Program-made: the position numbers and the translations under genes | The notes under the pieces: generated by a model | The model's database searches: none | Seen by the model: the letters and a program-made list of their open reading frames with translations, nothing else | What the model was told of the DNA's origin: nothing | IMG/VR virus record: IMGVR_UViG_3300031963_011159 | Location: 1-31,795 of that record | Source of the DNA: a virus | Reading direction: 5' to 3' (one strand) | DNA length: 31,795 nucleotides | Shown: positions 1 through 8,717 of the stretch, one piece after another | How positions within the stretch are numbered: the stretch's first letter is position 1 | Layout: each line of letters starts with the position of its first letter

Positions 1-359
1 AACCAAATTTTATCTGTAGGCTTTAAAATTGTTCCTAATTCTGTCCACCATAATTCATCATGTGTATTCGCATTGGTGTAAATTTCTATTTCACAATTGC
101 GAGAAACTAAGTAACGCATTAAAGGTAGAAATTCTTCATATAAAGTAGGTTCAGAAACACTACCACTTATGCAGGCATATTGTAAATTTGGAAATGTTTC
201 TAATTGATCGATCCACTCCTGTAAAGGTCTAATATTTTTTACAACAAGATGCTTACCGTTTTCATAAGAACGTATGCATAGTGGACAATCAAGATTACAT
301 GTTCCCGTTAGCTCCAATTCCACTTCTCTAATTTGTTCTACCGATAAACCTTTCTTCAT
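1..359 (-). CDS. Radical SAM protein A, C-terminus beyond window
   Basis: The reading frame opens with ATG at 359 and stays open to base 1, giving about 119 residues; the rest lies outside the window. Cys21, Cys25 and Cys28 form the CX3CX2C [4Fe-4S]/SAM signature of radical SAM enzymes. Around residues 63-70 the usual GGEP strand is replaced by I-S-G-S-V-S-E-P-T-L, and an I-Y-T-N-A strand follows near residue 95, as expected along a radical SAM TIM barrel. The ATG overlaps the stop of the preceding radical SAM gene (ATGA), so the two are probably translationally coupled. This is the sixth and last radical SAM gene visible in the operon. The substrate is unknown, and an auxiliary-cluster domain cannot be judged because the C-terminus is missing. 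Confidence 0.85.
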   Translation of the reverse strand, partial: MKKGLSVEQIREVELELTGTCNLDCPLCIRSYENGKHLVVKNIRPLQEWIDQLETFPNLQYACISGSVSEPTLYEEFLPLMRYLVSRNCEIEIYTNANTHDELWWTELGTILKPTDKIW

Positions 360-970
360 AGATATATAATACTATCGAAATCTTTTTCTTTAAACACTCG
401 TTTTTTAGATTCGACCGTCATCCTTTTATATTGACTTGTTAACATTTTATGTTTTAATTCATTACTTAATACCACTTTGTTAATGCCTTCAGGCATTGTT
501 GCAGCCACTAGGTTAAACTTAATGTCTGGATATTTAGCAAGAAATGCATCTAATCTGTTAAAATTATTGTCAGTAACAATTAATAAGTATTGTAAATTTA
601 ATTCTGAATCAATAATAATATCATCATTAATATCTAAGTCCTCAGAACAATGATATAAAATAGTATCAAATCGTGGTAACAAATCTCGGTATCGTTTAAT
701 AAACAACCCGTTGGTGTTGATACTAACTGGACATCCTTTAGATTCCAACTCTGATAATATAAACTCTATGTCATCACGTTTCATTGTGCCAACTTCACCA
801 CCACTTAATGTTACATTGTATCCAGGTATAACCTTATCTAGTTTGGCTTTAACTTCTTCCATTGTAAGTTTAGGACGATTGTGCGTATCAACACAACAAT
901 AGTCGCAGAACCAATTACAAACCCATGTAACAACTAGTTCAATTTCCTTTTCTTTTGCTTGTATTCCCAT
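356..970 (-). CDS. Short radical SAM protein B (single-domain)
   Basis: The protein has 204 residues with Cys18, Cys22 and Cys25 in CX3CX2C, a further Cys26, and an S-G-G-E motif at 56-59, the SAM amino-group binding loop. An in-frame GTG lies at 979, but ATG at 970 is preferred: a GAGG Shine-Dalgarno sits 8 bases upstream of it and it falls 2 bases after the previous stop. The protein is a clear paralogue of the next gene; both share V-D-x-H-N-R-P just after the cysteines, then SGGE and T-N-G-L-F-x-K-R. It has no C-terminal cysteine cluster and is short for a radical SAM enzyme, closer in size to activase or QueE-like single-domain members, though those have different signatures. It may act on a protein or as a partner of its paralogue. 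No family-level function can be assigned. Confidence 0.88.
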   Translation of the reverse strand: MGIQAKEKEIELVVTWVCNWFCDYCCVDTHNRPKLTMEEVKAKLDKVIPGYNVTLSGGEVGTMKRDDIEFILSELESKGCPVSINTNGLFIKRYRDLLPRFDTILYHCSEDLDINDDIIIDSELNLQYLLIVTDNNFNRLDAFLAKYPDIKFNLVAATMPEGINKVVLSNELKHKMLTSQYKRMTVESKKRVFKEKDFDSIIYL

Positions 971-972
971 TA

Positions 973-1551
973 TTACCACCTCGATACTACAGTAATAAAT
1001 TCATTCAAACTATAGGGATGCACTTTATCACCATGTTCATTAAAAAAATCCATCATCAAATTTAAATTAATTTTTTTTTGACTTCGAACATCAGGTAACA
1101 ATAAAAACTTAATATGTGGATACTTGTTAATCATTGTGTGTATGCTACCATCCAAAAAGTTGGTATTGGTCACCACCAACCCGTAAAATACATGATCGAA
1201 TTCCAAATTAGGAAATTCAATATCATCTGGTAGATATTCTACACAATGATAATGTATCTTTCCAAACTCATGTACTAACGGCATGTGTCGTTTGAAAAAC
1301 AATCCGTTGGTTAACAAATCAATTACACAGTTTTTATCTTTTAATATTTTAATTAGTAATTCTAATTCTTCACGCTTTAATATTCCTGGTTCTCCACCAC
1401 TAAAAGTAACTTCACTACCAGGTTCAATATCTTTTACTTTACTCAATACTTCTTCAAACGGAAGTTCTGGTCGGTTGTGAATATCCACCACGCAATAATT
1501 ACAATGCCAATTACATTTATTAGTTAGAGGTAATTCAATGTCTTTAATCAT
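973..1551 (-). CDS. Short radical SAM protein C (paralogue of B)
   Basis: The protein has 192 residues from ATG 1551, which overlaps the upstream stop as ATGA; a TTG at 1560 would add three residues but is a poorer choice. Cys13, Cys17 and Cys20 form CX3CX2C, and S-G-G-E-P lies at 51-55. It shares V-D-I-H-N-R-P, the spacing to GGE, and L-T-N-G-L-F-F-K-R with protein B, so the two are tandem duplicates. No auxiliary cysteines are present. A run of nine A residues on the coding strand (1071-1079) encodes Gln-Lys-Lys and is a possible slippage or sequencing-error site, but the frame is open on both sides. The gene sits inside an uninterrupted chain of coupled genes. Radical SAM assignment is firm; the substrate is unknown. 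Confidence 0.88.
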   Translation of the reverse strand: MIKDIELPLTNKCNWHCNYCVVDIHNRPELPFEEVLSKVKDIEPGSEVTFSGGEPGILKREELELLIKILKDKNCVIDLLTNGLFFKRHMPLVHEFGKIHYHCVEYLPDDIEFPNLEFDHVFYGLVVTNTNFLDGSIHTMINKYPHIKFLLLPDVRSQKKINLNLMMDFFNEHGDKVHPYSLNEFITVVSRW

Positions 1552-2573
1552 CGATACCAACCTTTTCTATAAAAGTTGACTTGTTTGATTTGTTTGCCGT
1601 GTTCAGGCCGCAATTTCACATCTTTGATTTGTTTTTCTACACCATCACAGATATAATAATGTTTACACTTCAAACAATCGGCAGTTTTATAGTATGTCCT
1701 GTTGCGTTTGAATTCTGCAGCTGCATACATTGCCTTTAAAGGATCTGCACGATATGCTAATGGGTCAATATCTCTATTATATACCGCAATATTCCAATCA
1801 TATATGTCATAAATGTGTTGATAATAATTACACACATATTGTTCATAACCTTTCATAAAACAATAAGGAGTATATCGTACATTGATAATTTTAACCGAGT
1901 CTTTAAGTAAATCAATTGCTTGATGTACATAAGGAGTAATTATTGAATAGTCAATTGTTTCTTGAACTCCGGCATCATCCCAATAATTTAATGTAAGGAA
2001 ATTAACTTCAAAAGGCTTTAACTCTTGCATTAAAGCAATAAATTTTGTTGGTAAATTCTTATAATTTTTATGTGTGACAGTACAATTAATGCGGACTAAT
2101 ATACCTAATTCGTGAGCATTATGTATGGCTTGGACTATATTTTCAAATCCTTTTCGGTGACCAACTAATGTATTGTGACTTTCTTTATCGTATCCATGAA
2201 CACTAAAAAGTATCTCGTCTAATCCGTGTTTTTTAGATTTGGTCAAAAACAGTTTATCTGCAAACTTATAACCATTACTTAAAGTACTTATCTTTAAACC
2301 TTTACTTTTACAATAGTCTAGTATATCAAACCATTGTTTATGGATACTGGATTCTCCTCCAGAAAGGTCTACCTCTTTGATACCGCAATCTACAAGGTAA
2401 TCAATTCGTTCTTTAATTACATTAAATTCAGTTACATCGTTTAGTTGTGTCTTGTAATAACAAAATTCACAACGATAATTACAATGTGTACCTGTATCTA
2501 ACTTGGCTCGTTGGCACAAAGGTTCATCATAATCAATTTCTAATTGATGACTTAATTCATTATATAACTTCAT
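1548..2573 (-). CDS. Radical SAM protein D with partial C-terminal auxiliary cysteine set
   Basis: The protein has 341 residues. Cys31, Cys35 and Cys38 give CX3CX2C followed by Tyr-Tyr; S-G-G-E lies at 71-74, lacking the usual proline, and an L-S-N-G strand follows. The C-terminal part has cysteines near residues 237-247 and then Cys300, Cys303 and Cys309 in C-L-K-C-x5-C. This looks like a reduced SPASM or twitch domain that could bind one auxiliary [4Fe-4S] cluster. Such domains are typical of enzymes that modify peptides (sactisynthases, PqqE, anaerobic sulfatase maturases), but they also occur in enzymes acting on sugars and other small molecules. The gene starts with ATG overlapping the TAA of the glycosyltransferase-like gene (TAATG) and ends overlapping radical SAM C. 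Substrate unknown. Confidence 0.88.
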   Translation of the reverse strand: MKLYNELSHQLEIDYDEPLCQRAKLDTGTHCNYRCEFCYYKTQLNDVTEFNVIKERIDYLVDCGIKEVDLSGGESSIHKQWFDILDYCKSKGLKISTLSNGYKFADKLFLTKSKKHGLDEILFSVHGYDKESHNTLVGHRKGFENIVQAIHNAHELGILVRINCTVTHKNYKNLPTKFIALMQELKPFEVNFLTLNYWDDAGVQETIDYSIITPYVHQAIDLLKDSVKIINVRYTPYCFMKGYEQYVCNYYQHIYDIYDWNIAVYNRDIDPLAYRADPLKAMYAAAEFKRNRTYYKTADCLKCKHYYICDGVEKQIKDVKLRPEHGKQIKQVNFYRKGWYR

Positions 2574-4258: not shown

Positions 4259-4876
4259 TCAATAATCTAAATAAAAATTTTCTAAAAATTTATTTGTAAG
4301 TTCAACAACATCTTCTACTGTTGATGATGATAATACATCATTTTTAAATTTGGAAAACTTTCTTTCTAAATAAGCAACTTTTTCTATTTCGTCTTTATAA
4401 TTTAAATAGTCTTCCAGTTTTGAAATTAATTTTTCATCGCCAGTTTCTAGTATTTGTAAATACTTTTCTTCTCGGTTTTCATTTGTAATTGCATAACCGG
4501 CATTAATTAGGTCATTGTTTAAAACCATAAATCCGTACAAAGTTAATCCAGCAATTTTACATAAATCTGGACTAACAATCATTCTTACTTTTGCTAAATT
4601 ATGATTTTTTGATTCTTGAAGAGGATCTTCTAATGAAGTATCTTTTACATTAACTTCAAAAGGAAGTACTTCATTGGCCATCATATTTTTATTAATATGC
4701 ACCGTTTTATTGGCCAACAAAGCTTCTTCAATTTTTTTATAAGAAACATGGGACAATTTTAATAACTTTTCATCATTGTTTACTAAATTGTCAAAGGTAT
4801 TTTTTGTTACATTGGTTACCCTCCAATAGGTGCCACAATCAACAACCATAGCTAATTCATAAATCATAGAACTCAT
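4259..4876 (-). CDS. Unknown 205-aa protein directly after the Cys-rich fibre gene
   Basis: The protein has 205 residues; ATG 4876 is preceded by AGAAGG with a 6-base spacer, one of the clearer ribosome sites in the block. The N-terminal half has a short beta-like start (M-I-Y-E-L-A-M-V-V), a segment with a helix and H-I-N-K, and an L-A-K-V-R-M-I-V strand. The C-terminal 80 residues are strongly acidic and helical, with a likely coiled coil from about residue 135 to 200. There are only two cysteines and no membrane segment. The gene lies 16 bases after the S74 fibre gene, where tail-fibre assembly chaperones often sit in phages, so chaperone or fibre partner is one possibility; a recognition partner for the neighbouring radical SAM enzymes is another. 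I do not recognise the family. Confidence 0.7.
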   Translation of the reverse strand: MSSMIYELAMVVDCGTYWRVTNVTKNTFDNLVNNDEKLLKLSHVSYKKIEEALLANKTVHINKNMMANEVLPFEVNVKDTSLEDPLQESKNHNLAKVRMIVSPDLCKIAGLTLYGFMVLNNDLINAGYAITNENREEKYLQILETGDEKLISKLEDYLNYKDEIEKVAYLERKFSKFKNDVLSSSTVEDVVELTNKFLENFYLDY

Positions 4877-4892: not shown

Positions 4893-5603
4893 TTAAATAG
4901 GTAATTTTTTATAATCTACTTTATAATATCCGTTTTCATCGGTTAAAACAGCGTTTGAATAAATTGTGTTTAACAAATCTTGCGCCATGACACCCACTTT
5001 GGTGATACTTTTGTCCCAAATGTAATTGAATGAATATAGATTAATACCTTTTTTAGTATAAAGATATTTAATATTTTCTTTTAATCTTTCATCACTATAA
5101 TTACAACCGCAATTACCATTGCAATCACAAACTAAATTACATGCACAATCAGAGTTGCAAATACAATCTTGTCGCATAGTATTGTATTTTGCTAAAAGTA
5201 CTGACCAATGCGTATCTTCAACCAATTCTCCATCAGCATAACTATTAGGTGATGTGGTATTATCAGGTTGCTCTGTAAGAACGGCATAATTTGATCCAAC
5301 GGGTTCAACAACATTATTTACTCTTTGTACAATTGTTTCATAGTCATTAACATGATTATTATCAATTACTGTAACACCTGCACCATGATCGGCACCACTC
5401 CTATCAGAAGCGGTATATGCAGAAGCCATATCTCCAGCGGCCGCAAAACTTCTATGTTTAGCATATGTTGCTAATTCGGCTCGAATAGCATTTTTTAAAG
5501 TATTAATGTCATTAGCAGTAATTAAAGCTCCTGGTATTGCAAAATTGCCAGATAATGTGACTGGGTTATTTGTAGAACATGGGGCTCGATTTCCAGTACA
5601 CAT
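4893..5603 (-). CDS. Cysteine-hexad tail fibre protein with C-terminal Peptidase_S74 chaperone
   Basis: The protein has 236 residues. Residues 20-140 look like a phage fibre shaft or knob: I-T-A-N-D-I-N-T-L-K-N-A-I-R, then polar Gly/Asn/Ser-rich sequence. Residues 147-170 are four exact C-x-C-N-x-x hexads with cysteines at 147, 149, 153, 155, 159, 161, 165 and 167. Immediately after comes S-D-E-R-L-K-E-N-I, the hallmark opening of the Peptidase_S74 intramolecular chaperone, running to the C-terminus with G-V-M-A-Q-D-L near 200. In endosialidase-type S74 proteins a Ser and a Lys five residues on form the self-cleavage dyad; Ser170 and Lys175 fit. Cleavage would leave a mature trimeric fibre ending in the hexads. 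The start is one base after the stop of SPASM radical SAM E, which strengthens the idea that this is its substrate; that link is inference. Confidence 0.88.
   Translation of the reverse strand: MCTGNRAPCSTNNPVTLSGNFAIPGALITANDINTLKNAIRAELATYAKHRSFAAAGDMASAYTASDRSGADHGAGVTVIDNNHVNDYETIVQRVNNVVEPVGSNYAVLTEQPDNTTSPNSYADGELVEDTHWSVLLAKYNTMRQDCICNSDCACNLVCDCNGNCGCNYSDERLKENIKYLYTKKGINLYSFNYIWDKSITKVGVMAQDLLNTIYSNAVLTDENGYYKVDYKKLPI
5094..5165 (-). repeat. Four tandem 18-base units encoding C-x-C-N-x-x hexads
   Basis: Four in-frame 18-base units, each starting TGY-NNN-TGY-AAT/C, encode eight cysteines with perfect six-residue periodicity and an Asn after every second Cys. The codons differ between units (TGT and TGC mixed, variable third positions), so the periodicity is kept at the protein level and is not a recent DNA duplication. 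The array ends exactly at the serine that opens the S74 chaperone domain. Confidence 0.93.
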
Positions 5604-5604
5604 T

Positions 5605-6756
5605 TTAGACTTCCTTTTCCACTAATTTTATCTCTTTATTTAAATATGATTGAACTGATCTATCAATTTCACCAAATGCTTTAAAGAAACCACACATATT
5701 ATTAACCCATCTATCCGTCCATCGGTCAAAATAATCTACTTTTTTACTGTTGTCCAAGCTACTAACTGGACAAATCATACAGGTTGTGGCCACGCATCCT
5801 TTACATATATCAGACACTTCTTTAATAGGAGTCTGATATTTCTTACTCATAGATTCTACACTATTTATAAAACCGTCATCCATAATATTACCACCTTTCA
5901 TCAAATCCTTATTAGGTGAGTATATTGAACCATGACATGCATAACTATTACCATCAACATCAATGGCATGCATATGAGCACCAGATGTACAATGAGATTT
6001 CGAATCTGAACCGTTAAACCATGAACATAAATGGTACCCATGTTCTTCAAAAAATTTGATTTCTTCAGCTGCAATTTTTATCATTTCGGATCTAAAATTT
6101 TGAATCAATCCTTCTAAGTTTTCTTTAGGTATTTCTTCGACATAATCAATTGTAGGTGCATATGAAACATTAATGTTTGGTCCAATAGAATTAAGTTTAA
6201 GATGCAAATCTTTAAAATCCAACCAAGTATTATAAAGACCTTTCATACTCTTTAAAGGTATTGTAGATTTAAGGAATACATTAATACCTTTTCTAGCAAA
6301 GTATTCTATATTCTCGACAACTTGATCTGAAGTTGGTTTACCTGAATGAGTGACTCTAAATTTATCTCCAATTTCTTTACCATCATGTGATATTTGTACC
6401 GTTAATTTACGAATATCCACTTTATCAAGAATATCATCTAGTCTTTTTCTATTGTAACCATTTGTATAAATGTGAAAATTAACTTTATCCAAATGTTGAA
6501 ATTCGGTCATTATATCTACAATCAAATTTCCGTTTAAAGTGGGTTCACCACCCCAAAAAGTTAAATTTAACATTTCATAGTTGTCTTTTAAAAAATTACT
6601 ATCTAAAAGTTCGTAAATTCGTTTCTTAACAACATCAACTTTATCATCTAGTCTTTGTGTATTGGTCTTTGCACCTTCAAAACAATATGTGCAACCCATA
6701 TTACAAAGTGCAGTAGTTGTAATTTCTAATGTGAACTGATTATGTTTTTTGTTCAT
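5605..6756 (-). CDS. Radical SAM/SPASM protein E, probable peptide-modifying enzyme
   Basis: The protein has 383 residues. Cys18, Cys22 and Cys25 give CX3CX2C; W-G-G-E-P lies at 68-72. The C-terminus holds a full SPASM-type set: Cys256-x12-Gly-x4-Cys274, then Cys318, Cys321, Cys326 and Cys329, then Cys355. The first pair fits the family spacing exactly; the middle quartet (CX2CX4CX2C) is slightly compressed from the usual CX2CX5CX3C. SPASM enzymes bind two auxiliary [4Fe-4S] clusters and typically modify ribosomal peptides or proteins. The gene overlaps the 79-aa gene upstream (ATGA) and is followed after one base by the cysteine-hexad fibre gene, the arrangement expected of a maturase and its substrate. 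Family assignment is firm; the substrate is inferred from position. Confidence 0.92.
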   Translation of the reverse strand: MNKKHNQFTLEITTTALCNMGCTYCFEGAKTNTQRLDDKVDVVKKRIYELLDSNFLKDNYEMLNLTFWGGEPTLNGNLIVDIMTEFQHLDKVNFHIYTNGYNRKRLDDILDKVDIRKLTVQISHDGKEIGDKFRVTHSGKPTSDQVVENIEYFARKGINVFLKSTIPLKSMKGLYNTWLDFKDLHLKLNSIGPNINVSYAPTIDYVEEIPKENLEGLIQNFRSEMIKIAAEEIKFFEEHGYHLCSWFNGSDSKSHCTSGAHMHAIDVDGNSYACHGSIYSPNKDLMKGGNIMDDGFINSVESMSKKYQTPIKEVSDICKGCVATTCMICPVSSLDNSKKVDYFDRWTDRWVNNMCGFFKAFGEIDRSVQSYLNKEIKLVEKEV

Positions 6757-6992
6757 TTAGTTTTTTCTTCCTTAGAAAACTCCATTATTTCATCGAGTAT
6801 TGAAAACATCTTTTCTTCTGTAACCTTACTTACTTCTGGCTTAACAATACCCACCATTTCTTCTGCCATACGAAATAGTTTAACAGCTTCAGGTCTAAAG
6901 TCCTCAACATTAGTTAAGTATTTTCCAGCTTCATTTAAATGAAACGCTGCACCATAAAGTGCTTTATTCATTTTTTTTATCGAATTAGCCAT
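6753..6992 (-). CDS. Small helical protein between two SPASM enzymes
   Basis: The protein has 79 residues with no cysteines, no signal peptide and no membrane segment. It is predicted by eye to be nearly all helix: a basic N-terminal helix, G-A-A-F-H-L-N-E-A-G-K-Y, then an amphipathic helix around residues 33-50 and a charged C-terminal helix ending E-E-K-T-K. The gene overlaps the stop of radical SAM F by eight bases and the start of radical SAM E by ATGA. An internal ATG at 6971 would give 72 residues; neither start has a strong ribosome site. The absence of beta strands argues against a PqqD-type winged-helix recognition element. It may still be an adaptor or chaperone for the flanking enzymes. 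Function unknown. Confidence 0.75.
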   Translation of the reverse strand: MANSIKKMNKALYGAAFHLNEAGKYLTNVEDFRPEAVKLFRMAEEMVGIVKPEVSKVTEEKMFSILDEIMEFSKEEKTK

Positions 6993-7989
6993 CTATCAAT
7001 TCTTTCATAACAGTATTTTTAAAATTTTCATTATTTCTTAATTGTTTTGTCATATCACCAACATTTTTGTACATAAATTTATATACATCACACAATTCTT
7101 TTATTGGTCCTTTATTTTTTATCTGTTCAAATAAACAACCTTTTTCACAATAATTTTTTACCTCACATGTTTGACATTCAGACATGCGCTGATATTCCGG
7201 AATCAATTCTACCATCTCTGGATTATCCTTGAATCGATTGCAAGGTACAGGTTTGTTTTCACTAAACATAAAAATATCTGTTCCTGCACCACAAAAATCT
7301 TTAACAAATCCGTTAGATTCATAATTAATAAAATGTCGTAAATAAAACAATATGAAGTACGGCATTTCTTCTTCAGGATTATCAATATACCAATTGAACA
7401 ATTCTGTTATACCAACTTTTAATCTCTCCACACTCTTTGAATCCCAAACATGCATGTCACGAACCAAAGTAAGTTCAGGATTAACACCAAAGTGTTTCCT
7501 AATATATAGGTGGTTTTCCAAAAGGTTATAGCACCCTTTGTAGATCATAGTGTGTATCTTAAAATTTGGTATTCTTTGAAACAATTCTCGTTTCTCAAAA
7601 AATCTAGGTACAGTACCTTTACCATTTAATTGAAGTCTGTTTTTATCATGCCACAGTCCATCAAAACTCAATGATACATTTACTTTCTTCTCAATCAAGT
7701 ATTCCAATATTTCTTCAGTAAGTAGTAAACCATTTGTTGGCATTCCATATTGAATATTGCCATCATTCTCAGTTTCACTAATAATGGTTTTTATTAAATC
7801 CATAAAAAGTAGTGGCTCACCACCAAAGAAATCAATTTGTATCAACTCATCAGGAAAAGACTTTCTAACCCTACGATACTCATTTAAAAATAGTTGTGGA
7901 TCTATAACATCTTTAGACAACTTGTCTTGATTGCAATATGAACAATTGAGATTACACTTTTCAGATAAAAATACGGTAACTAATTTCAT
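6985..7989 (-). CDS. Radical SAM/SPASM protein F, anaerobic-maturase-like
   Basis: The protein has 334 residues. Cys12, Cys16 and Cys19 form CX3CX2C, followed by F-F-G-G-E-P at 54-59, P-T-N-G near 83 and S-L-S-F-D-G near 106, the strand order of anSME/sactisynthase-type enzymes. The SPASM domain is complete and canonical: Cys233 and Cys250 (C-G-A-G-T-D and P-C-N-R-F), then Cys272, Cys275, Cys281 and Cys285 in exact CX2CX5CX3C, then Cys300. All ligands for two auxiliary clusters are present, so the enzyme should be active if reduced. Known relatives convert Cys/Ser to formylglycine or build thioether or C-C bonds in peptides. The start overlaps the dehydrogenase stop (ATGA). Substrate not proven; the nearby cysteine-hexad protein is the best candidate. 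Confidence 0.93.
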   Translation of the reverse strand: MKLVTVFLSEKCNLNCSYCNQDKLSKDVIDPQLFLNEYRRVRKSFPDELIQIDFFGGEPLLFMDLIKTIISETENDGNIQYGMPTNGLLLTEEILEYLIEKKVNVSLSFDGLWHDKNRLQLNGKGTVPRFFEKRELFQRIPNFKIHTMIYKGCYNLLENHLYIRKHFGVNPELTLVRDMHVWDSKSVERLKVGITELFNWYIDNPEEEMPYFILFYLRHFINYESNGFVKDFCGAGTDIFMFSENKPVPCNRFKDNPEMVELIPEYQRMSECQTCEVKNYCEKGCLFEQIKNKGPIKELCDVYKFMYKNVGDMTKQLRNNENFKNTVMKELIDG

Positions 7990-8717
7990 TGTCTATATTG
8001 TTCATTAAGTTCTAATACAGTATTTAAAAGTTTCATGTCAAATTTTTTACTTAAAGCTTGTGTGTCTTTTGGTAAACATGGTCCGCCAAATCCTCGTTGG
8101 CCATCAGGACCAGGTACTTCAAAGTGATGTGATCCCATCCATCGATGTTTTGAAAGCATTGCAGTCAACTCATTATAATCAACATTCATCTCTTTTGATA
8201 TGTCATATATTGAATTCATAAAGGTAACTTTTAAAGCATAAAACGAATTCATTGTATATTTTGCAAGACTAGCCGTTTGCACATTAGTTAAAAAGACATT
8301 ATCAGTTTTAACAATAGAATATTTTTGGTAAATATCTAAAACTTCTTTTGCTTTATCACCACCAATAATCAACATTGGAGGATTAACAAAATCTTCATTT
8401 GAAGTTTTTCTTGATAGAAATTCAGGATTATAAATTATATCATAACCTTCTAATTCATGCGGCAATATTGTCGATTTTACTATTGTCAATCCTTTGTAAT
8501 TGAATTTGACAATCTGATTCAATACATCTTTTAAAATTTTGTAATTTGTATTATCTGTCGGAGTTGGAACGCAAATGAATATTGCCTCCGGGTTTGAAGA
8601 ACAAACTTCTTCTAATGATATATCATTATATTCGGGATCACAAATAATTTTAGATACATTGGGAAAGCCATAATCAACGGCTTTTCCCACCATACCATAA
8701 CCAACAATACCAATCAT
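7986..8717 (-). CDS. UDP-glucose/GDP-mannose-type nucleotide-sugar dehydrogenase, C-terminally truncated
   Basis: The protein has 243 residues against roughly 390-450 for the family. The N-terminal NAD-binding Rossmann domain shows G-x-G-x-x-G at Gly6-Gly11 and I-F-I-C-V-P-T-P-T near 47-55, a family signature. The central domain has S-L-A-K-Y-T-M-N-S-F-Y-A (catalytic Lys and Asn region) and G-F-G-G-P-C-L-P-K-D with the nucleophilic Cys at 214. The protein stops within the long helix that normally connects to the C-terminal UDP-binding domain, which is absent. All residues for NAD binding and thiohemiacetal chemistry are kept, so it may act on an unusual or carrier-bound sugar, or need a partner supplying the missing domain. 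It lies 6 bases after the tail fibre gene and is coupled to radical SAM F. Likely role: making a uronic-type sugar nucleotide for the glycosyltransferase-like pair. Confidence 0.88.
   Translation of the reverse strand: MIGIVGYGMVGKAVDYGFPNVSKIICDPEYNDISLEEVCSSNPEAIFICVPTPTDNTNYKILKDVLNQIVKFNYKGLTIVKSTILPHELEGYDIIYNPEFLSRKTSNEDFVNPPMLIIGGDKAKEVLDIYQKYSIVKTDNVFLTNVQTASLAKYTMNSFYALKVTFMNSIYDISKEMNVDYNELTAMLSKHRWMGSHHFEVPGPDGQRGFGGPCLPKDTQALSKKFDMKLLNTVLELNEQYRQ

Follow-up and report, generated by a model that had tools for sequence, protein, structure and literature searches.

Candidate radical-SAM maturation cassettes paired with C-terminal cysteine arrays in phage fibre proteins

CteB and PapB, two SPASM-type radical S-adenosylmethionine (SAM) enzymes, are thioether-forming maturases. 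PapB acts on repeated Cys-X3-Asp motifs and accepts Cys-Xn-Asp with n=0-6 (PMC9413430). In some phages, radical-SAM genes have been reported without an explanation: the Campylobacter phages CP220 and CPt10 carry 11-12 of them as well as an equally unexplained 21-bp coding repeat, IBB_35 carries six (PMC2853527; PMC3322345), and in pelagimyophages radical-SAM cassettes are mentioned as part of the cluster for host recognition (PMC7029224). The papers on the Campylobacter phages list the radical-SAM genes and the 21-bp repeat as separate oddities, and a link between the two is not drawn there. Here we analyze a virus record from IMG/VR with a length of 31,795 bases (the window), in which two SPASM enzymes, here called E and F, a small protein of 79 amino acids (aa) and a fibre-like protein with an array of cysteine hexads are encoded together (Table 1). 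This gene group is best explained, in our judgement probably correctly, as a radical-SAM maturation cassette acting on the C-terminal array of the fibre protein.

The array protein is built from an N-terminal Cys-containing segment, a helical middle part, the hexad array and an S74 chaperone domain. Residues 147-170 consist of the hexads CICNSD, CACNLV, CDCNGN and CGCNYS, with eight Cys within residues 147-167, and the next residues, D-E-R-L-K, belong to the S74 motif. The Pfam profile Peptidase_S74 (PF13884) matches residues 170-219 with E=6e-7 and scores 30.1 bits, the cut-off being 22, and a Foldseek search returned proteins titled 'Intramolecular chaperone auto-processing domain'. Following the endosialidase work, we take S170|D171 to be the S74 cleavage point, with a catalytic dyad of Ser and Lys spaced by 5; this motif, S170..K175, is kept across the S74-bearing relatives. 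C149, C153, C159, C161, C165, C167 and N168 are invariant among 15 relatives and C147 is nearly so. Since the hexads are kept in relatives that otherwise align at only ~30% mean column identity, they are not a product of chance. In the structure model of the protein the S74 domain is well folded and the array disordered; the AlphaFold pLDDT is below 50 over the array, and the model is uninformative there. A previous reading of the sequence alone had described the four hexads with their eight Cys in this 236-aa protein and the coupled order F, 79-aa protein, E and fibre. Its coordinates and counts proved correct when the open reading frames (ORFs) were re-checked, and the coupling is borne out by an overlap of F with the 79-aa gene, a 4-base overlap of the latter with E and a gap of 1 base between E and the fibre gene.

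The association of enzyme and array was followed in IMG/VR from both sides, once with an alignment of E that took no account of arrays and once with a pattern of three CxCN units in a row that took no account of enzymes. The E-seeded search yielded 37 true relatives with 26 to 97% identity to the E of the window. A Cys-array gene is the very next gene in 31 of 36 scorable loci, as compared to 7 of 436 for the other genes of these loci, all seven being themselves arrays of the same kind (Fisher p=1.3e-36, a value that overstates independence because of the near-duplicate loci L130/L131/L156, L152/L153 and L148/L149/L154; L-numbers are labels of the compared loci). In the opposite direction, most other raw matches of the hexad pattern were wrong-frame artefacts in repetitive DNA, so that checks of frame and context were needed; these were carried out, only open, sensible ORFs were retained, and the spurious loci served as a control. 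When scored with profiles, radical-SAM genes were found in 15 of 19 real array loci and in 1 of 70 wrong-frame loci. An E relative lies immediately upstream of the hexad-S74 protein in every one of L016, L081, L017, L028 and L041, and likewise upstream of the S74-less arrays of L031, L088, L105 and L052. L080 holds a 585-aa relative with matching motifs, and other radical-SAM genes adjoin the array or lie near it in L040, L086 and L070. The sequence-only reading had named hexad-S74 proteins mostly lacking a nearby radical-SAM gene as the observation that would speak against it; instead, a SPASM radical-SAM gene directly precedes each full hexad-S74 protein that was found, and the co-occurrence within five genes that it had proposed for viral metagenomes is seen in 36 of the 37 E relatives. 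The system is also wider than that reading had described, as it includes arrays without S74, heptad arrays, split S74 domains, Hint-processed arrays and cultured phages. A marine type of array (L002, L042, L110 and ~18 similar loci) is found in proteins of 122-128 aa, ends in CNCNC and is accompanied by a SPASM gene of ~490 codons two genes downstream; radical SAM was found in 12 of 21 such loci, the available stretch often ending before or within the enzyme gene, and the whole records behind them mostly have exactly one radical-SAM gene. A tblastn search of cultured phages with the whole fibre protein returned S74 matches only, probably as a result of the low-complexity filter, and two of these that were inspected had no annotated radical-SAM gene within 10 kb.

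Furthermore, the phylogeny of E tracks the array type. In a maximum-likelihood tree, most partners of hexad arrays fall into one clade (support 96/89) and the partners of heptad arrays (CTCDCNY), together with two unclassified members, into another (99/99). The array-type label changes 7 times along this tree as compared to 17.4 times in shuffled labels, and none of 200 shuffles gave as low a number. The hexad ends without S74, taken by themselves, require at least three changes on the tree.

E and F both score above the cut-off of the Pfam family Radical_SAM (PF04055) and both contain the CX3CX2C core and the auxiliary-cluster cysteines expected of SPASM enzymes. In E, the core residues C18, C22 and C25 and the auxiliary residues C256, C274, C318, C321, C326, C329 and C355 are invariant among 20 relatives, with an auxiliary spacing of CX2CX4CX2C that is slightly off the classic one. 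F has the canonical spacing CX2CX5CX3C, and its C233, C250, C272, C275, C281, C285 and C300 are kept in 9 relatives. In L088, L105 and L132 the cluster motif of F had seemed to be lost; this idea was discarded, as the motif sits upstream of the called start. The best NCBIfam model of both enzymes is PapB (NF047865), followed for F by QhpD, and by their sequences both resemble the PapB ranthipeptide maturases, although by the curated cut-off they are not members of that family. The best full-length PDB relative of E and of F is 5wgg (entry title 'Radical SAM domain protein'), which we take to be CteB; F is also matched by 8vpo and by structures of anaerobic sulfatase-maturating enzymes (anSMEs). 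In bacterial genomes the E profile retrieved for the most part maturases of the SCIFF type from Firmicutes, and directly upstream of many of them the SCIFF peptide (GCGECQTSCQSACKTSC) is encoded. These matches serve as an internal positive control for reading such a pairing as one of enzyme and substrate. An F homologue is found at most four genes upstream of E in ~31 of 37 loci, in many of them with the small helical protein in between.

Most arrays are placed at the predicted mature C-terminus, which is reached by several processing routes. Plain stop codons end the S74-less proteins of L134 (CNYS*), L159 (CNYA*), L132 (CNYTA*) and L130 (CNYTQ*). The scissile Ser predicted for the full-S74 proteins follows the last Cys at a distance of exactly three residues in 12 of 12 cases (CNYS|D), and S|D..LK lies at most 7 residues from the last Cys in 21 arrays. 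In six heptad-type or divergent loci (L137, L142, L143, L145, L151, L157) the S74 domain is split: the array protein keeps its first 12 residues and ends 11 past the scissile Ser, and an adjacent gene of 84-103 aa encodes the remainder, which is above the Pfam cut-off in 6 of 6 loci (e.g. L151:7097-7705 and 7720-7998). The short SD..LK tails had also been considered as tags; this was rejected when the missing S74 portion was found in the adjacent gene. Finally, the arrays of the Achromobacter phages JWF (NCNCDCNCNCSC) and 2-1 run straight into a Hint domain, the first Cys of which is the last Cys of the array. A few arrays have 12-17 trailing residues. The proteolytic release by S74 or Hint autocleavage is predicted from sequence; judged by the known S74 mechanism, S74 cleavage of the array proteins is likely.

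Pairings of this kind also occur in cultured phages. In JWF (gp28, L178:3679-5130) and 2-1 (L179:3856-5298) a radical-SAM gene, which in JWF is gp30, lies two genes downstream of the array-Hint fibre. In CP220, where it is gp140, and likewise in CPt10 and IBB_35, a protein of 534 aa with CNYCTCD heptads is encoded beside RnlA and an E relative, and in CP220 an F relative, small proteins and a UDP-glucose dehydrogenase are grouped elsewhere in the genome. These phages thus resemble the window in having an E relative near a heptad protein, and F together with small proteins and the dehydrogenase. In the Erwinia phage phiEaH2 (L260:5099-5889) two tandem ORFs with C-terminal CSGxC arrays, unannotated as such, lie upstream of two radical-SAM genes, which suggests that the principle extends beyond E.

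Taken together, we propose that F, the small gene, E and the array gene form a phage-encoded maturation cassette, in which E, probably together with F, would modify the C-terminal Cys array of a fibre or tail-tip protein post-translationally. The proposal draws directly on the gene pairing in both directions, the co-diversification of enzyme and array, the intact cluster ligands and the C-terminal placement of most arrays. Going by this genomic evidence, the array is very probably the substrate of E. The RiPP-like modification of the fibre put forward by the sequence-only reading (RiPP, ribosomally synthesized and post-translationally modified peptide) is accordingly supported by reciprocal genomics in that a ribosomal product is encoded beside a modifying enzyme; from this pairing we infer the enzyme-substrate relation, and a crosslinking of the array is putative. 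The likeliest products would be intramolecular thioethers that join Cys to a neighbouring residue at a carbon of its backbone or side chain, a suggestion from family resemblance that we make tentatively and with slightly less than even confidence. A crosslinked array could form a rigid, reduction-resistant structure. The follower domain, which is either Hint or an S74 domain provided in cis or in trans, would aid folding and trimerisation and shield the end, and would then cut itself off (at S170|D171 in the window protein), leaving the array as the exposed tip of the mature protein, which presumably meets the host; for contact with a receptor at this tip we consider the chances even. The occurrence of the array-enzyme pairing in many unrelated phages suggests that these viruses alter the host-contacting tip chemically, by crosslinking or in another way. 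That phages of many kinds use private radical-SAM maturases to crosslink C-terminal Cys tips of their fibres, unveiled by self-cleaving followers, appears somewhat more plausible than its opposite as a general viral strategy.

A number of observations weigh against this proposal. With 91.7 bits for E and 102.2 for F against a PapB cut-off of 340, both enzymes are far below the family cut-offs, so that the PapB-type reaction cannot be transferred to them. The Cys-X3-Asp/Glu substrate motif of the PapB family is absent from the arrays, which consist of CxCNxx or CxCxCNY units; since PapB tolerates Cys-Xn-Asp with n=0-6, the loose spacing of the arrays is no obstacle to a PapB-like chemistry. An acceptor residue is not obvious: N, H or D follows the second Cys of CxC in 124 of 130 cases, and the other residues vary. 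No RRE-like (RiPP recognition element) domain or leader was found, as E begins at the radical-SAM core and the 79-aa protein is all helical. In the Campylobacter phages ~2 kb separate E from the array upstream of it, so that the two are not adjacent, and the array is internal, with 199 aa after the main run, and F is encoded elsewhere. One array type (L011, L023, L074, L106) has no radical-SAM gene nearby and is the sole clear exception; it is found in a 645-aa protein ending in CGCNTGCGCNTGCGCN. Finally, a CxCx3CxC spacing would also suit metallothioneins.

The alternative that survives best retains the array as substrate of E and differs in the reaction, which might be epimerisation, conversion of Cys to formylglycine, methylation or C-C crosslinking. 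SPASM enzymes are diverse, the annotation of the JWF enzyme is that of an anaerobic sulfatase-maturating enzyme and F matches anSME structures, so we regard such a chemistry as possible but rather unlikely; the best matches, PapB and CteB, both form thioethers, and the array cysteines are not embedded in the anSME motif C/S-x-A/P-x-R. A second alternative is that the array is an unmodified, metallothionein-like metal-binding tip and that the radical-SAM genes act elsewhere or aid metal loading. C-C spacings of 2 and 4 indeed predominate (226 and 99 of ~365), and His sometimes takes the place of Asn after Cys. However, the Pfam searches gave no metallothionein match, and a metal site requires no radical-SAM enzyme, yet E adjoins the array in most loci with a phylogeny that matches the array type; we therefore consider this explanation improbable. 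Even less credence is given to ordinary disulfides that stiffen the fibre, with the enzymes as bystanders in a variable host-recognition island, as the neighbouring cysteines of CxC are poor disulfide partners for each other and for bystander genes one would not expect so close a pairing, seen from both partners and mirrored in the phylogeny. What speaks for it is the disulfide network known from the tail of phage Milano (PMC10811340) and the position of the pelagimyophage cassettes in a variable cluster (PMC7029224). That E and F target host glycans, lipids or other phage molecules, with the gene order reflecting co-regulation with late fibre genes, is very improbable, for although a UDP-glucose-dehydrogenase-like gene adjoins F and more radical-SAM genes follow, the nearest families act on Cys-rich peptides or proteins, and E accompanies the array even in loci that differ in F, the dehydrogenase and other genes.

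Table 1. Features of the proposed maturation cassette and its neighbours in the window
Feature	Position	Strand	Basis
Array protein (proposed substrate), 236 aa	4893..5603	-	ORF; S74 above cut-off; homologues at the corresponding position of many phages
Four CxCNxx hexads, residues 147-170	5094..5165	-	Sequence; Cys conservation in 15 relatives
S74 intramolecular chaperone domain, C-terminal to the predicted cleavage site S170|D171	4896..5093	-	PF13884 on residues 170-219; Foldseek
E, SPASM-type radical SAM enzyme, 383 aa	5605..6756	-	PF04055; NCBIfam PapB best; adjoins arrays
Small helical protein, 79 aa, between F and E	6753..6992	-	Homologues in the same place; three-helix model
F, second SPASM radical SAM enzyme, 334 aa	6985..7989	-	PF04055; NCBIfam PapB, QhpD; PDB CteB, 8vpo, anSME
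UDP-glucose-dehydrogenase-like protein without C-terminal domain	7986..8717	-	PF03721 and PF00984 only
205-aa protein just after the array	4259..4876	-	phrog_25260; shared motif in relatives

With regard to the wider locus, T4-like baseplate genes are located at ~18-31 kb of the window, and downstream of them the minus strand encodes, in this order, a 1044-aa fibre-like protein, the UDP-glucose-dehydrogenase-like protein, F, the 79-aa protein, E, the array protein and the 205-aa protein. Beyond the latter lie two genes of unknown function and then further radical-SAM genes, bringing the number in the window to six, where two had been noted from the sequence alone. Runs of this kind after the array cassette are seen in the window (3-2573), in L113 (13007-19070) and in L115 (13029-20083); L113 has nine radical-SAM genes within ~12 kb, and some genes in such runs encode only ~200 aa. 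The 79-aa protein is conserved at its place between F and E. Its model has three helices and no strands (pLDDT 86.5), and a structure search of the PDB gave no significant match; a role as RRE was rejected on these grounds, and it is a possible adaptor or chaperone. A UDP-glucose-dehydrogenase-like gene is found near F in otherwise different phages as well (L177:3678-4448; CP220 gp019), and a gene of like size (243-249 aa) directly precedes F in ~13 loci. Homologues of the 205-aa protein follow the arrays in hexad and heptad loci, share the motif GYxIT..NREEKYLEIIE.GD (e.g. L142:8040-8615, L151:7998-8594) and are possibly fibre assembly factors. Some array proteins have N-terminal Cys/His repeats (MGCTAHTNTTACTAHT in L140:7134-7270), possibly a metal site or a segment for enzyme recognition. 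In L150 (7136-7636) an E relative is followed by a different array type of CHSN tetrads with the end WCFWCA.

A literature search returned no paper joining radical SAM with fibre arrays and no description of a virion protein modified by radical-SAM chemistry; most subscription papers were outside its coverage, and novelty is thus unproven. If our proposal is correct, this would be, to our knowledge, the first radical-SAM-modified virion adhesin. It would define a class of post-translational modification of viral proteins and a novel construction principle for viral adhesins, located at the fibre tips that decide the host range of phages. It would also explain the many radical-SAM genes of the Campylobacter Firehammerviruses and of uncultured T4-like phages, a puzzle since 2010 (PMC2853527). 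The cultured phages would then provide a testable substrate, and the system would yield enzymes for large repetitive protein substrates as well as a split self-cleaving chaperone.

Among described systems, the closest in sequence to E and F are PapB with freyrasin and the SCIFF ranthipeptides (CteB/ScfB), which likewise combine a SPASM enzyme with a Cys-rich ribosomal substrate encoded beside it. Whereas the ranthipeptides use a short peptide with a leader and a protease, the arrays described here are at the C-terminus of fibre proteins of ~100-800 aa, are followed by a domain predicted to cleave itself, with no RRE seen, and have Asn, His or Asp after the second Cys rather than Asp/Glu alone; the chemistry in our case is a predicted one. 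QhpD, from the maturation of quinohemoprotein amine dehydrogenase, is similar in that a radical-SAM enzyme matures a protein subunit and not a peptide, but it belongs to a cellular enzyme cofactor system with a substrate unrelated to the fibre array. The fibre chaperones of the S74/endosialidase type are matched above cut-off, with their S|D..LK motif and C-terminal position in a fibre-like protein; unlike in the endosialidase type, S74 here follows a Cys array and in six relatives is split, with the remainder coming from a second gene. The tail of phage Milano (PMC10811340) shares the principle of Cys-rich tail parts that give covalent stability; there, however, ordinary disulfides extend across many proteins, and the paper describes neither radical SAM nor a C-terminal array.

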